Part shown: positions 22,649-27,684 of the stretch, piece after piece | How the letters are laid out: the number at the start of each line of letters is the position of its first letter | Position numbering within the stretch: the first letter of the stretch is position 1 | From: Anaerolineaceae bacterium | Lineage (GTDB): Bacteria > Chloroflexota > Anaerolineae > Anaerolineales > Anaerolineaceae | DNA: 64,000 nt | Reading direction: 5' to 3' | NCBI GenBank assembly: GCA_029975475.1 | Contig: JARKPB010000008.1 | Span: 992,001-1,056,000, forward strand | Program-made: the position numbers and the translations under genes | Notes under the pieces: generated by a model | What the model was told of the DNA's origin: nothing | The model's database searches: none | What the model saw: the letters and a program-made list of their open reading frames with translations, nothing else

Positions 22649-22981
22649 CTAAAAACCAGCGAGATTTCGAACCAGCGCATAAGCGCAGCCAATCAGCGCA
22701 AAACCGACAAAAACGAGGAATATGCCGACACCGGCATTGGTGCGGGTGAGCTGGTTCAATGCGTCAATCAGATTCGCCGCGTTACCGACCAGCCCGGATA
22801 AATCCTCTGAGAGACCTTTCTGCGCCAGTTTTGAGGTTTGCGCGGCGATCGCGTTGATCTCCTGCCCGACCACTTTGCTGACCAGGACAAAAATCCCTAC
22901 AATCATGACCACGATCCCGGCGATGAGAAGAACGCCGGCCATGGTAAAGAAAAAATTACTGATAGTCATTGAAAAAATCAT
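22649..22981 (-). CDS. Small two-TM membrane protein, first gene of the sigma-54 operon
   Basis: A 110-residue protein with a hydrophobic helix at ~5-37 (FFFTMAGVLLIAGIVVMIVG), an amphipathic middle (~38-82, rich in Ala, Gln, Leu) and a second hydrophobic helix at ~84-106. The layout suggests a hairpin membrane anchor with a helical loop. I do not recognise a family. The ATG at 22981 has GGGAGG 6 bases upstream. It is the first gene after the -24/-12 promoter, with a leader of only ~25 nt, so its product is coordinated with the TPR and peptidase proteins and might anchor or sense for them (inference). Confidence 0.75.
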   Translation of the reverse strand: MIFSMTISNFFFTMAGVLLIAGIVVMIVGIFVLVSKVVGQEINAIAAQTSKLAQKGLSEDLSGLVGNAANLIDALNQLTRTNAGVGIFLVFVGFALIGCAYALVRNLAGF

Positions 22982-23016
22982 CCTGTCCTCCCGGCAATGG
23001 CCTTCGGAGGATAGGA

Positions 23017-23033
23017 TGCAATATTCGTGCCAG
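23017..23033 (-). promoter_or_regulatory. Sigma-54 (-24/-12) promoter
   Basis: Minus strand reads C-TGGCACG-AATA-TTGCA, an exact fit to the RpoN consensus TGGCACG-N4-TTGCA. The invariant GG is at 23031-23030 and GC at 23019-23018, giving a start near 23006. It lies in the gap between the sigma-54 activator gene and the small membrane protein gene. I found no comparable -24/-12 match elsewhere in the window by eye. Confidence 0.9.
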
Positions 23034-23060
23034 GTTTGATTTATTGGTTTGCCTGGGCGT

Positions 23061-24221
23061 TTACCAGGTCAAAGGGAGATGTTCGATATCCAGTTCAGCG
23101 CCGTCGCAGAACAGCATGGCTCTTTCAATTGTGTTGCGCAGTTCGCGAATATTTCCGGGCCAGGAGTAAGCAGTCAAAATATCCATGGCGCGGCCGGTCA
23201 TTCCCTGAATATTCATACCCTGGCGGGCGTTGTTGAGGCGGATAAAGAAACCCACCAGGTCGGGGATATCCGCAATTCGCTCGCGCAAGGGCGGCAGGTG
23301 CAGGTCGACTACCTTTAAACGGTAATACAAATCTTCCCGGAAAGTTCCTTCTTCGATCATCTTCCGCAAATCGCGGTTGGACGCGGCGATTAACTGCACA
23401 TCCACCTTAATCAACGCCGTGCCACCCACCCGGCGGAAAGCTTTCTCCTCGATGACGCGCAGCAGCTTGGCCTGGATATCCACCGGCATGGAGGAAATTT
23501 CATCCAGGAATAGAATACCGTCATCGGCGACTTCAAGCAGGCCGATTTTACGTTTTTCCGCGCCGGTGAAAGCGCCGGCTTCATACCCAAACAATTCCGA
23601 TTCAAGCACCGTGCTTTGAATCGCGGCGCAGTTCAGGGCGATAAAGGGCTTGTTGGAGCGCGGGCCGGAAGAATGGATATACTCCGCCAAAACCTCTTTT
23701 CCCGTGCCCGTCTGACCGGTGATCAAAACGGATACTGAGGCTGCAGCGGCGCGCTGTGCCTGGGACAGCACCTGGCGCATCGCCTGGCTCTCGCCCACGA
23801 TAAACTTGGCTTTCTGCAGCTGCTGTTCGCGAAAATGGGCGATCTCCCGCCGCATCCGCACCAGTTCGCCAGCGCGTTTAATGCTTTGATCCAGACGTTG
23901 AAACTGTAAAGGCTTTGAGAGAAAATCGACCGCCCCGTTTTTCATCGCATCTACCGCCATTTCGATATCGCCGTACGCGGTGAAGAGAATGATCGGAGGG
24001 CTGTTGGGGTTCTGAGCGGTCTCAAGCAGCAGACTGGGGCCGTAGCCGTCGGGTAAAGTAACATCCAGAAGGACAATATCGCCGGCGCCGCGGTTTAAAT
24101 GATTTCGGGCTTCTGCCAGTGTCCCGGCCCCGATAACCTCAAAACCCTTCCCGACCAAATATTGCCCGATGAACTCGCGCGCGTTTTCTTCGTCATCCAC
24201 GATTAAGATCGTAAAGCTCAT
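23061..24221 (-). CDS. Sigma-54-dependent response regulator lacking a DNA-binding domain
   Basis: A 386-residue protein with a receiver domain (acidic DDE at 9-11, phospho-acceptor Asp53 in LLDVTLPDGYG) and a sigma-54-interacting AAA+ domain: Walker A GQTGTGKE, the sigma-54 contact loop GAFTGA, Walker B ILFLDE and the R-finger region. It ends ...NTIERAMLFCDGAELDIEHLPLTW, where NtrC-type proteins begin their Fis-type helix-turn-helix. That HTH is absent, and no continuation is readable in the bases after the stop. It is therefore ~80 residues shorter than NtrC. It should activate RpoN polymerase without enhancer binding, as described for FlgR and Chlamydia CtcC. Its start overlaps the kinase stop (ATGA). 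Confidence 0.92.
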   Translation of the reverse strand: MSFTILIVDDEENAREFIGQYLVGKGFEVIGAGTLAEARNHLNRGAGDIVLLDVTLPDGYGPSLLLETAQNPNSPPIILFTAYGDIEMAVDAMKNGAVDFLSKPLQFQRLDQSIKRAGELVRMRREIAHFREQQLQKAKFIVGESQAMRQVLSQAQRAAAASVSVLITGQTGTGKEVLAEYIHSSGPRSNKPFIALNCAAIQSTVLESELFGYEAGAFTGAEKRKIGLLEVADDGILFLDEISSMPVDIQAKLLRVIEEKAFRRVGGTALIKVDVQLIAASNRDLRKMIEEGTFREDLYYRLKVVDLHLPPLRERIADIPDLVGFFIRLNNARQGMNIQGMTGRAMDILTAYSWPGNIRELRNTIERAMLFCDGAELDIEHLPLTW

Positions 24222-26167
24222 TCAGATACTCCGTTGCTGGCCGGGATCCGGATGGTAAATACCGTTCCACCGGGAAAGGATTCGACATTGACCGCGCCGC
24301 GGTGGCCGACAATCACCCGTTTTGTAATCGCCAGGCCAAGGCCTGTTCCGCGGGGGCTGTTGCTGACAAACGGTTCAAAAATTTTATCACGAAGATCATC
24401 CGGAATCCCTGGTCCGTTATCGGATATGGAGATAACAACTTCCGGAATGCCTGCGGGGCTGTTTTCTTTGGATAAATTAATCGCCAGCGTGCCGCCGGTT
24501 TGACTCATCGCTTCCAGCGCGTTACTGACCAGGTTGGTATATACCTGCTCCAGAGCCCGCGCATCGCCTTGAATCCACAATGGCTGCTGGGGGGGATGAA
24601 AAAATGGGCGCACATTCACCCGCGCAAATCGCGGCTGCCAGCGGCTGACAAACCGCTGGGTGAAATCAACCACATCCATTTCCTCCAGCTTTAAATTATC
24701 CGGACGGGAAAAGGTCAGGACCGATTCCATTAGGTGATTGATGCGGTTGCAGTCATTGATCATGCGCTGGATGCTGTCCTGCGCGGGAGCGCTTTCCGGT
24801 AGCAGACTCCCCAGCAACTGCAGCCCGGTCATGATGTTATTAATTGGATTTCGGACTTCATGCGCAAAGACCGCCGATACCTCCCCCAGGACTGCGCGGT
24901 GTTCCAGCTGTTCTGTGCGCGCGCGGATCTGTTCATCTTCGGAACAGTCTTCAATAAAAACCAGGATCGCCAGGATCTCGTTTCCGCGATTCACCGGGAT
25001 GACCTGTAGATGCGCGGGGAAAGACAGGCCGTTGCGGCGGTGCAGGGATACGCTGCCGAGGTTATGGGTGGGTATATTTCTTGTGGCTACGCGCATTGCC
25101 TGGATCACTCGCTCTGAGCCGATTACAATATTCTCTACCGGTTGTCCGCGCACCTCTTCGCTGGCATAACCAAGCATCCATTCTGCCGCTGGATTCAGCC
25201 CCGCCAGAGTCAGCCGCGGAGTTAAAATCAAAACTCCTTCTTTCAGGTTCTCAATAATCTCATCCTGAACAGCCAGCCCGCTGCGGTCTTTCTCGATTTG
25301 GTCTTTCAGGTTGGATACCAGAATCAGATTCTCATAAGCGGCATTAATCTGGGCTGACAGGATCGACAGGGTCTTCAGCGCGCGCTCATCCGCGCTGTGA
25401 TCCAAATCCGCAGCCGCCAGCAGCCCCCAGACCGCTCCGTCCGATCCCAGGGGGTGAACCGCCAGCACGGAAAGTCCGGCATTCCGCGCTGCCCGCTGAA
25501 TTTCTGTATTGATCCTTTTTTCCGGGGTCCAGAGACCGGCCTTTTTATAATGGATCAAATCCGTAGAGGGGAGGAATTCTGGCTGCCAGAGAGGTTCTCC
25601 GCTTCTGGCCGCCAGCCTTAACCGCGGGCTGTCACCCATCGCCTGATAGACCGCGCAGCTGCGCAGGCCCAGTAAACTGGCGCAGTTCACCGCCGCCTGT
25701 TCAAACATCTTCTCGGGGGTTTCAGCCACAAGCAGGCTGGTCATATCGCCCAGTGAACGGAGGGTCGTTTCCTGCCAGCTTTGAATTTGCTCGCTGGCGT
25801 CATCCCTGCCTTTAACTTTTATTAACCACCAACGTTTCTCGTCATCCAGTACACGCGACTCGAGGAGCACAGCCAGGTCAGGTCTGGACGGGCGGCGCAA
25901 GGCAGCGTCCTGAACCTCAAACCGGGAAACATCCGCGGCTTGAATTCCAGTCAAGAGCTCACTGACCCCTGCCCCTTCCAGCGAATGAGGAGCCCGCCCG
26001 CACAGGTGATACAGCGCTTGATTGCAGGTGACAATTTTGCCGCTGATCAGGTCTACAATCAACGCGGCCTCTTCAAAAGCGTCCAGGACGGCTGCCAGAA
26101 CCTCCCCGCTGGCTGTTTTCCCGCGGAATAAAGATTGGAGCATCTGGAATCCTGATTTCGCGCTCAT
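24218..26167 (-). CDS. PAS/GAF sensor histidine kinase
   Basis: A 649-residue soluble kinase with no transmembrane segment. Order: PAS-like domain ~20-110, GAF-like domain ~145-280, second PAS ~295-410, HisKA with phospho-acceptor His436 (FAHEVRNP), then HATPase_c with NLVSNALEAM (N box), DNGPGIPDDLRDKIFEPF (G1) and GTGLGLAI (G2). NtrB-like in its catalytic half. It almost certainly phosphorylates the overlapping response regulator. It begins one base after the rpoN stop. The N-terminal sensor domains suggest a cytoplasmic signal, which is unidentified. Confidence 0.93.
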   Translation of the reverse strand: MSAKSGFQMLQSLFRGKTASGEVLAAVLDAFEEAALIVDLISGKIVTCNQALYHLCGRAPHSLEGAGVSELLTGIQAADVSRFEVQDAALRRPSRPDLAVLLESRVLDDEKRWWLIKVKGRDDASEQIQSWQETTLRSLGDMTSLLVAETPEKMFEQAAVNCASLLGLRSCAVYQAMGDSPRLRLAARSGEPLWQPEFLPSTDLIHYKKAGLWTPEKRINTEIQRAARNAGLSVLAVHPLGSDGAVWGLLAAADLDHSADERALKTLSILSAQINAAYENLILVSNLKDQIEKDRSGLAVQDEIIENLKEGVLILTPRLTLAGLNPAAEWMLGYASEEVRGQPVENIVIGSERVIQAMRVATRNIPTHNLGSVSLHRRNGLSFPAHLQVIPVNRGNEILAILVFIEDCSEDEQIRARTEQLEHRAVLGEVSAVFAHEVRNPINNIMTGLQLLGSLLPESAPAQDSIQRMINDCNRINHLMESVLTFSRPDNLKLEEMDVVDFTQRFVSRWQPRFARVNVRPFFHPPQQPLWIQGDARALEQVYTNLVSNALEAMSQTGGTLAINLSKENSPAGIPEVVISISDNGPGIPDDLRDKIFEPFVSNSPRGTGLGLAITKRVIVGHRGAVNVESFPGGTVFTIRIPASNGVSE

Positions 26168-27577
26168 TTACCTTCTCAAGGGAACGGGGGTTCGTAGATG
26201 GGCGGGGAGGATCCCTTCCATGGCGCGGTATTTGGCCACGGTGCGGCGGGCGACTTCATACCCGTCACGGGCGAGGAGAAAGGCGATTTCCGTGTCGCTT
26301 AGCGGGCGGGTTTCCTGATGAATATAATTCTTAATCACCGTGCGAATATTCAAACTTCGGTCAAAGAAAGAAGCCATTGGCACAATTTTACCGTTGGGCA
26401 GTTGGACGGCTTTATTCGCCACCGCCCTTGATATGGTAGATTCATGCACCTCGAGCTCGCGGGCAAGCTGAGCACGAGTGACGGGCTGCAAATATTTATC
26501 GCCGTGAAGAATATACAACCGCTGCAGTCCAACAATGCGCTGCATCAGGCGCAGCATGGTGTGGTTACGCTGCTGCAGGCATTTAACAAATAAGGATGCT
26601 TTTTCAAGGTCCGTGCGCATATCTTCTTTCCGATCCTCCTCCGACACCTTCAGCGCCTGCTTGAAAAACGGGTTGACCCGCAGGGTGCCGCTGATCGGGA
26701 GGATCACTTCCACAAACAACCGTTCGCTTTTCCCGTCATGCGCGCAGGTGATAATCACATCCGGTTGATGGAAAACGCCGGTCTCGTCGCTGGGATTGCT
26801 GCGGTTCGGTCCCCAGTGCGCCCGGGCCGGGTAAGGATTTAAGTTTTCCTGGATAAAATCCACCGCGGCGCGAACCTGTTTGAGGGTCACACCGCAGGCG
26901 CGCGCCAGGCTGGCGTACTGGCGGCGGCTCAACAAATCCATGTGGTCGGATACCAGTTTGAAATATAAATCCGGCAATGAACGTGTTTCGGAAAGGGCTT
27001 CAAGCTGCACCAGCAAAGCTTCTTGCGGGTTTCTGGCAGCCACCCCGACCGGATCAGCCCGCATGATCATCTGATGCACCGATTCAACCTGGCTCAGGGG
27101 CAGGTTAAAGTAGCGGGCGGCTTCGAACAATTCGATTTTCAACAAACCGTCTTCGTCCAGATTCATGAGAAGAAACGCGGCAACCTTCTGTCCGGTTTTA
27201 TCCAGGTCCGAGGCAACCTGACGCAGCACATACACCGGTAATTCCTCAACCTCAGGAGCGCTCATTCCGTCGCGAAAATCATCCTCATCCACCTCACGGC
27301 GGGAGAAGAAATCTTCGCGCGGGGAAATATAGACCACCGAATCATCTCCGATGGCGTCTTTTGGCGCGCTGCACACCGGGCACGAACCCGCCGGCGGCAA
27401 AGCGCGCTGACAGAGCGGACAGCGGCGTTCATCCAGCATCTCGAGAGCAGGATTGCTGGCCAGTTCCGAGTCGATCTGCTGCTTCAACTCGTCAACCGCC
27501 AGACTGAGCAGGGTCATCGTCTGCGCCAGATGAGCGGTTGTGGTCGGGCGGATGGTATGCTGCTGAAGGATTTTCAT
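26168..27577 (-). CDS. rpoN: RNA polymerase sigma-54 factor with zinc-ribbon-like insert
   Basis: A 469-residue sigma-54. Region I: MKILQQHTIRPTTTAHLAQT...LASNPALE. The core-binding domain and C-terminal helices follow, ending with the RpoN box ARRTVAKYR before EGILPAHLRTP. Between region I and the core is a zinc-ribbon-like motif, Cys53-x2-Cys56 ... Cys66-x2-Cys69 (CPLC/CPVC), not present in enterobacterial RpoN. I chose the Met at 27577 because the preceding 16 codons do not resemble RpoN and overlap the promoter spacing. First gene of the rpoN-kinase-regulator operon. Confidence 0.95.
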   Translation of the reverse strand: MKILQQHTIRPTTTAHLAQTMTLLSLAVDELKQQIDSELASNPALEMLDERRCPLCQRALPPAGSCPVCSAPKDAIGDDSVVYISPREDFFSRREVDEDDFRDGMSAPEVEELPVYVLRQVASDLDKTGQKVAAFLLMNLDEDGLLKIELFEAARYFNLPLSQVESVHQMIMRADPVGVAARNPQEALLVQLEALSETRSLPDLYFKLVSDHMDLLSRRQYASLARACGVTLKQVRAAVDFIQENLNPYPARAHWGPNRSNPSDETGVFHQPDVIITCAHDGKSERLFVEVILPISGTLRVNPFFKQALKVSEEDRKEDMRTDLEKASLFVKCLQQRNHTMLRLMQRIVGLQRLYILHGDKYLQPVTRAQLARELEVHESTISRAVANKAVQLPNGKIVPMASFFDRSLNIRTVIKNYIHQETRPLSDTEIAFLLARDGYEVARRTVAKYRAMEGILPAHLRTPVPLRR

Positions 27578-27596: not shown

Positions 27597-27625
27597 AGTA
27601 TAGCGTGCAACCTGAATCGTTGCAA
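27597..27625 (-). promoter_or_regulatory. rpoN: Sigma-70 promoter of rpoN
   Basis: Minus strand: TTGCAA (27625-27620), 17-bp spacer, TATACT (27602-27597). The start would be near 27590, a 13-nt leader before the rpoN ATG. The housekeeping promoter makes the sigma factor and its activators available before the -24/-12 promoter fires. Confidence 0.72.
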
Positions 27626-27684
27626 GTTTCATACCAGCCAATCCAGTACTGGAATGGTACAATTTGTGCCATACAGGTTTCGTT

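Follow-up and report, generated by a model that had tools for sequence, protein, structure and literature searches.

The locus examined here raises the question of whether a sequence resembling the −24/−12 promoters used by RpoN (sigma-54), lying between an activator gene and an operon in an Anaerolineaceae bacterium, is a functional promoter, and whether RpoN in this organism serves only a very small regulon, as an earlier note on the same DNA had suggested. The window analysed is a stretch of 64,000 nt of contig JARKPB010000008.1, and all positions given without a locus label refer to it.

Results

The element occupies 23032..23017 on the minus strand, reads TGGCACGAATATTGCA and sits between the activator gene and the P0001–TPR–C25 operon. 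Written TGGCACG-AATA-TTGCA, it is the sole zero-mismatch match to TGGCACGN4TTGCW in the window and scores 19.5 bits, the maximum of the matrix used, the top match in the reversed window being 11.9 bits; both matrix and consensus are approximations. The perfect RpoN consensus described in the earlier note was therefore confirmed on the minus strand, although the span given for it, 23017–23033, has to be shortened as 23033 falls one base outside. Taking C23018 as −12, the expected start is at approximately 23006, 25 nt upstream of the ATG at 22981, with GGGAGG at 22992..22987 between the two, also as had been described. Its GG and GC elements are correctly spaced and it is conserved in place ahead of a gene, which satisfies the usual definition of a sigma-54 promoter. 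The match alone is weak evidence, as controls equal or exceed it: with up to three mismatches the window contained 76 matches, fewer than its shuffles (mean 116.7), and with up to one mismatch the genome contained 20 matches to the forward pattern versus 18 to the reversed one. Genome-wide counts were rejected as the main argument on these grounds, and because the five strict sites found (see below) lie within the simulated range of 2–10; the case is made by context and conservation.

The genes on the minus strand are ordered rpoN, kinase, activator, the site, P0001, a TPR protein, a TPR/C25 protein and alaS. P0001 (22649..22981) encodes 110 amino acids without a Pfam family, and its structure model (pLDDT 77.6) consists of two long predicted helices, residues 7–56 and 62–108. 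Pfam searches identified P0005 (17339..22624, minus strand) as a 1761-amino-acid TPR protein and P0006 (14550..17342, minus strand) as a protein with TPR and Peptidase_C25 domains (PF01364, E 2.3e-14). His650 and Cys697 of P0006, which we take to be the catalytic pair, are identical in 60/60 aligned proteins, so that the protein meets the description of Peptidase family C25 by profile match and conserved His/Cys, its protease activity being inferred; comparison with solved structures gave no match at E up to 1. The PAS/GAF histidine kinase gene (24218..26167, minus strand; Pfam) begins directly after the rpoN stop codon, and its end shares 4 nt with the activator gene.

Conservation of the site was assessed by scanning named genomes with a six-row P0001 alignment. 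This gave 64 loci, titled Anaerolineaceae, Anaerolineae, Anaerolineales, their genera or Chloroflexi/Chloroflexota, with one Candidatus Aquidulcis; Longilinea arvoryzae and Bellilinea caldifistulae are among them. One locus (L203) had no upstream sequence, leaving 63. P0001 follows the activator gene in 50 of these, and in 49 of the 50 a site of at least 12 bits lies within 200 nt upstream, while the reversed null gave 0/63. Where P0001 lies away from the activator gene, such a site precedes it in five of 13 loci and is missing from eight. Twelve of these 13 were mapped (L224 was left out): 11 carry geneA and ftsZ2 upstream of the P0001–TPR–C25 genes, each with one or more sigma-54-like sites of at least 14.5 bits at geneA or ftsZ2. 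In L055, from the same family, and in L059, the activator gene is not followed by any site scoring 14 bits or more. Strong matches to both rpoN and P0001 were found in 26 genomes among 296 (rpoN 34, P0001 28), with matches weaker than 1e-20 excluded and the lists compiled by hand. From these data we conclude that 23032..23017 is a genuine sigma-54 promoter and that the regulon to which it belongs is small and largely dedicated; the transcript start and the dependence on RpoN and the activator are inferred from sequence.

The rpoN gene itself, approximately 3 kb upstream of the site, occupies 26168..27577 on the minus strand if the ATG at 27577 is taken as its start; a frame beginning with TTG starts at 27625. 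Its product has the activator-interacting, core-binding and DNA-binding domains (PF00309, PF04963 and PF04552), all above cut-offs, and a single Sigma54_DBD match in the whole genome (3.15 Mb, 98.9% complete) indicates a single RpoN. The activator (23061..24221, minus strand) has a receiver domain and an AAA+ domain (PF00158, E 8.7e-71) with a GAFTGA loop, by which it qualifies as a bacterial enhancer-binding protein. No helix–turn–helix (HTH) family was matched in Pfam, and the protein lacks the C-terminal HTH that would define an NtrC-type activator: it stops after the AAA+ lid, 33 residues from the W of WPGN. Five PF00158 (Sigma54_activat) matches exist in the genome, one clear activator at 240 bits and four others at 23–36. 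In the class sample rpoN exceeded the Pfam cut-off in 39 of 296 genomes, and when 33 rpoN-positive relatives were rescanned at 1e-30, one activator was found in 24, two in seven, three in one and none in one. The GAFTGA loop varies in activators of relatives (L053–L070), occurring as GAFTSA, GAFTDA, GAFTNA, NAFTGA and NAYTGA; perhaps this reflects relaxed constraint in a system of one sigma factor and one activator.

The site between the activator gene and P0001 had been noted as the only strong −24/−12 element in the window, which does not hold. A second sigma-54 site, TGGTATGAAACTTGCA at 27636..27621 on the minus strand, scores 16.3 bits and lies before rpoN, outside the strict pattern. It forms part of a pair of overlapping predicted promoters (27597..27636, minus strand), with sigma-70-like boxes TTGCAA (27625..27620) and TATACT (27602..27597) 17 nt apart, so that the TTGCA of the sigma-54 −12 element doubles as a sigma-70 −35 box. 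The sigma-54 site before rpoN is present in 39 of 43 testable relatives (null 0), and a TATAAT-like box matching at least five of six positions follows its TTGCA in 34 of the 39, the spacing being exactly 17 nt in 32; applied downstream of the P0001 site, this test gave 3/54, none at 17 nt. The natural reading is that sigma-70 would provide basal expression of rpoN, to which sigma-54 would add auto-activation or occlusion. At glmY a single stretch of DNA is said to serve both holoenzymes through overlapping sigma-54 and sigma-70 promoters; unlike glmY, the overlap here precedes rpoN itself, with the −12 element doubling as −35.

The region immediately following the P0001 promoter is predicted to fold into an RNA hairpin (22981..23016, minus strand). 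Both the ribosome-binding site and the first base (A) of the start codon fall in its 3′ arm, and most of its 5′ arm precedes the expected start. The folding energy is −19.1 kcal/mol, but only −3.3 if the RNA is taken from the expected start onward; across leaders the means are −15.1 kcal/mol for the full sequence versus −3.5 from the predicted start. For the 46 nt after the −12 element, 50 P0001 leaders had a mean z of −4.3, the control leaders being at −0.2 (rpoN, n=39), +0.3 (geneA, n=7) and −1.4 (non-adjacent P0001, n=5). Covariation over a 13-pair stem was 0.391 on 42 aligned leaders, these being the 50 minus four removed by eye with a seemingly miscalled start (L216, L226, L231, L242) and minus four identical; shuffles averaged 0.222, with 0/500 as high, and slid stems reached at most 0.187. 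Cells changed on both sides of the stem numbered 84 versus 42.5 in shuffles, while pairs changed on both sides (8) and further pair types (27) were not above shuffled values (8.3 and 30.0). RNAalifold kept only six inner pairs, one of them with both partners changed, along with three pairs formed by invariant promoter letters, and the 13-pair stem was therefore named by hand for counting, a procedure biased in its own favour for which the slid controls are the check.

Activator genes without an HTH have a site within 700 nt in 53 of 62 cases, the median distance from the stop codon being 11 nt (28 nt in the window), although this set mixes named and unnamed loci and some are seemingly duplicates, for example L053 and L192. 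Given so short a gap, mRNA from the activator gene should run into P0001, and as the predicted sigma-54 start cuts the hairpin, folding is expected of read-through mRNA but not of sigma-54 mRNA. HTH-bearing lineages (L060–L064), with gaps of 113–434 nt between gene and promoter, have no stem (z −1.0 to 0.7), and L066–L068, with a shorter gap, are intermediate (z −1.9 to −2.4). L069 counts against this model: its promoter is close and its activator has no HTH, but the stem is missing (z 0.3). The structural requirement for a hairpin that silences read-through, as proposed for sigG and phage T4 (see Discussion), is met, with the start predicted and the silencing inferred.

Strict matches to TGGCAYRN4TTGCW occur at five places in this genome, all ending 25–45 nt upstream of the start of a correctly oriented gene. 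Ten simulated genomes gave 2–10 such sites, so the number is not above chance and the claim of a small regulon has to rest on position and conservation. In the comparison among genomes, strict sites numbered 65 in ~24 Mb (seven family genomes and G270, of the same order) versus 63 in ~50 Mb of 14 rpoN-less genomes of the same order (binomial p 2.8e-5), and lay upstream of a right-strand gene in 38/54 family cases versus 5/40 (Fisher p 1.9e-8), the latter count leaving out 4/58 family and 23/63 rpoN-less sites.

Besides the window operon, the targets predicted from strict sites are geneA and the ftsZ that follows, with one site each, together with an ftsL-like gene and a TPR/propeller gene. geneA encodes 437 amino acids without a Pfam family, is present in 14/14 rpoN-positive and 0/14 rpoN-negative genomes searched, and has a strict site 27–52 nt upstream in 7/7 family genomes. 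A separate promoter directly before ftsZ2 was rejected as a firm candidate, being strong in three of seven family genomes, weak in two and absent from two; in G000 and G255 its site lies within the 3′ end of geneA, where constraint on the protein may explain it. Only the predicted geneA promoter is kept as firm. The ftsL-like gene lies in a division cluster between rsmH and a penicillin-binding-protein gene, with its strict site between rsmH and itself (L074 2614–2629, plus strand). This site was found in five of seven family genomes and 0/14 rpoN-less ones, and none of at least 12 bits was found in seven rpoN-positive genomes outside the family. Two of the five are weak (G248, 12.4 bits; G229, 13.9 bits) and lie just inside the aligned frame, making the ftsL start codon in these genomes uncertain. 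The strict site of the TPR/propeller-like gene (at least 740 codons) is at L073 2224–2239 on the minus strand, 43 nt before it. A membrane-like protein family in G255, G248 and G229 (L077, L097, L100) also has strict sites, 97–100 nt upstream. On this evidence a small, largely dedicated sigma-54 regulon is well supported as a prediction. The earlier idea of a small, perhaps private regulon therefore stands, with one RpoN, one clear activator and five strict sites, but the regulon would span several loci, rpoN included.

This genome encodes two FtsZ proteins, the second at L007 4286–5437 (minus strand). The T7 loop reads NLDFAD in the canonical FtsZ and NVDFSH in the one after geneA. The T7-loop Asp is catalytic in E. 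coli FtsZ. In 25 distinct FtsZ2 paralogues from the study loci its position is held by His in 21, Asn in two, Ser in one and Asp in one; as the residue is missing in 24/25, reduced GTP hydrolysis by FtsZ2 is inferred.

The two halves of the module are joined in some relatives. L070 has rpoN, kinase, activator, P0001, TPR, C25, geneA and ftsZ2 in one cluster (P0001 placed by tblastn), and L069, where P0001 is labelled, has the same gene order from the kinase onward; in this genome the geneA–ftsZ2 half is at a separate locus under its own predicted sigma-54 promoter. Sigma-54-like sites of 20.3 bits also lie within the 3′ end of the TPR gene, upstream of the C25 gene, at L069 14065–14080 and L070 6101–6116. 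P0001 was matched in seven genomes of other Chloroflexota classes (L282–L288), once with geneA; the TPR gene adjoins it in 7/7 and the C25 gene in 6/7 (the L286 stretch ends first). These seven local stretches contain no labelled homologue of the activator, the kinase or rpoN, whole genomes not being covered. With no labelled sigma-54 genes nearby, the P0001–TPR–C25 module may be older than the sigma-54 link, or the link may have been lost.

Discussion

The genes of this locus, the missing HTH, the conserved sites and the pairing with its covariation are seen in the sequence. We consider it probable, in the absence of expression data, that a self-contained sigma-54 switch with an RNA read-through lock operates here, with 23032..23017 as its effector promoter. 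In this proposed circuit the shared sigma-70/sigma-54 promoter would supply basal RpoN, kinase and activator; the kinase would phosphorylate the activator; and the activator, having no HTH, would act from solution to open sigma-54 polymerase at a small number of promoters (the window operon, rpoN, geneA–ftsZ2 and ftsL), with specificity arising from a single sigma-54 and a single activator and not from enhancers. Both the phosphorylation and the activation from solution are inferred. Read-through RNA from the activator gene would be silenced as it folds and hides the ribosome-binding site (or terminates), while sigma-54 transcripts, beginning near the end of the hairpin 5′ arm, would remain open; start point and silencing are likewise inferences, as is the final step, in which the targets would remodel the envelope or septum.

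Other explanations for the data can be considered. That the promoter sequence is a chance match without function would agree with the near-equal forward and reversed counts at up to one mismatch genome-wide, but the retention of the site in all but one of the loci where P0001 follows the activator gene, against an empty reversed null, contradicts this, and we regard it as hardly credible. Another possibility is an ordinary NtrC-type system with a broader RpoN regulon, in which other activators or enhancers have been missed. Strict sites are about twice as dense in the seven family genomes and G270 as in the 14 rpoN-less genomes, a count that leaves weaker sites out; several strict sites precede genes not common to the genomes; and HTH-bearing activators exist elsewhere in the class. 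Nonetheless, a genome 98.9% complete yielded only one clear activator, without an HTH, and only five strict sites, and we think such a system improbable here.

Two further alternatives concern the hairpin. It could be an intrinsic terminator of the rpoN–kinase–activator transcript, with read-through silenced at another step, and the sequence after it is indeed T-rich: of 46 distinct leaders, 33 have at least five T within 9 nt. However, part of that T count comes from ATG-TTT codons, no terminator was called at 22850–23150, and 39 of the 46 leaders have three or more nucleotides of the ribosome-binding site in pairs; termination thus appears somewhat unlikely, though it is the alternative that we take most seriously. 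Operators are usually placed at the start point, and as the inverted repeat straddles the expected start it could instead be a DNA operator for a repressor, RNA folding being incidental. Against this, the two arms stay complementary although their sequences vary, and in the left arm the C residues facing GGAGG have mostly become U, keeping a U–G pair (positions 28–53, UG 12, other 2; positions 29–52, UG 15, other 0), although transition bias could contribute to this pattern. An operator is in our judgement distinctly improbable, and we retain the read-through lock.

Extending this circuit, we put forward more tentatively, as a possibility that we would not yet favour over its negation, that a private sigma-54 switch, doubly locked by the overlap of promoter and hairpin such that only sigma-54-born mRNA is translated, runs a morphogenetic module. 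This would comprise a two-helix membrane protein, a giant TPR scaffold, a C25 protease, an unknown protein, a second FtsZ usually without the catalytic Asp, and ftsL, and would have been split in Anaerolineaceae into two loci, both halves with sigma-54 promoters.

The individual parts are of known kinds. FlgR of Helicobacter and CtcC of Chlamydia are sigma-54 activators without a DNA-binding domain (PMC3162934, PMC7482065), and the G5 of GAFTGA is D in FlgR (PMC3162934). The activator described here resembles them in lacking that domain and, in relatives, in its loop variants (GAFTSA, GAFTDA, NAFTGA). Unlike in those systems, rpoN, kinase, activator and target operon adjoin, the junction carries a predicted hairpin, and what would be regulated is a C25-protease/TPR module together with division genes. 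For Bacillus subtilis sigG, a hairpin has been proposed that would prevent translation of mRNA reading through from the upstream sigma-factor operon and that cannot form on RNA from the gene's own promoter (PMC5942855). The hairpin predicted here is similarly on read-through mRNA and cut by the predicted start of its own promoter, but with a sigma-54 promoter and a stem that covaries across many species. With T4 late genes and I-TevI, the ribosome-binding site is covered by a fold in early and middle transcripts, the late start being too far downstream for this (PMC2988022); unlike these phage promoters, the present case would belong to a bacterial sigma-54 regulon. Sigma-54 is present in some Chloroflexi, and in the accessible part of the same comparative study cell division is not marked as enriched among its functions (PMC3162934). 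Among the matches listed in literature searches on sigma-54 or rpoN in Chloroflexi/Chloroflexota/Anaerolineae, titles and abstract openings did not describe this circuit, nor was there anything on the second FtsZ here; subscription papers and preprints lay outside the search. What appears new, judged from sequence and within the literature searched, is the combination, the targets and the hairpin.

If correct, the model gives a little-studied lineage a compact and testable circuit consisting of one sigma-54, one activator without an HTH and few promoters, and a covarying example of a promoter whose predicted start cuts a ribosome-binding-site hairpin. It offers many natural variants for testing enhancer-free activation, and would link sigma-54 in these bacteria to a second FtsZ and to ftsL.
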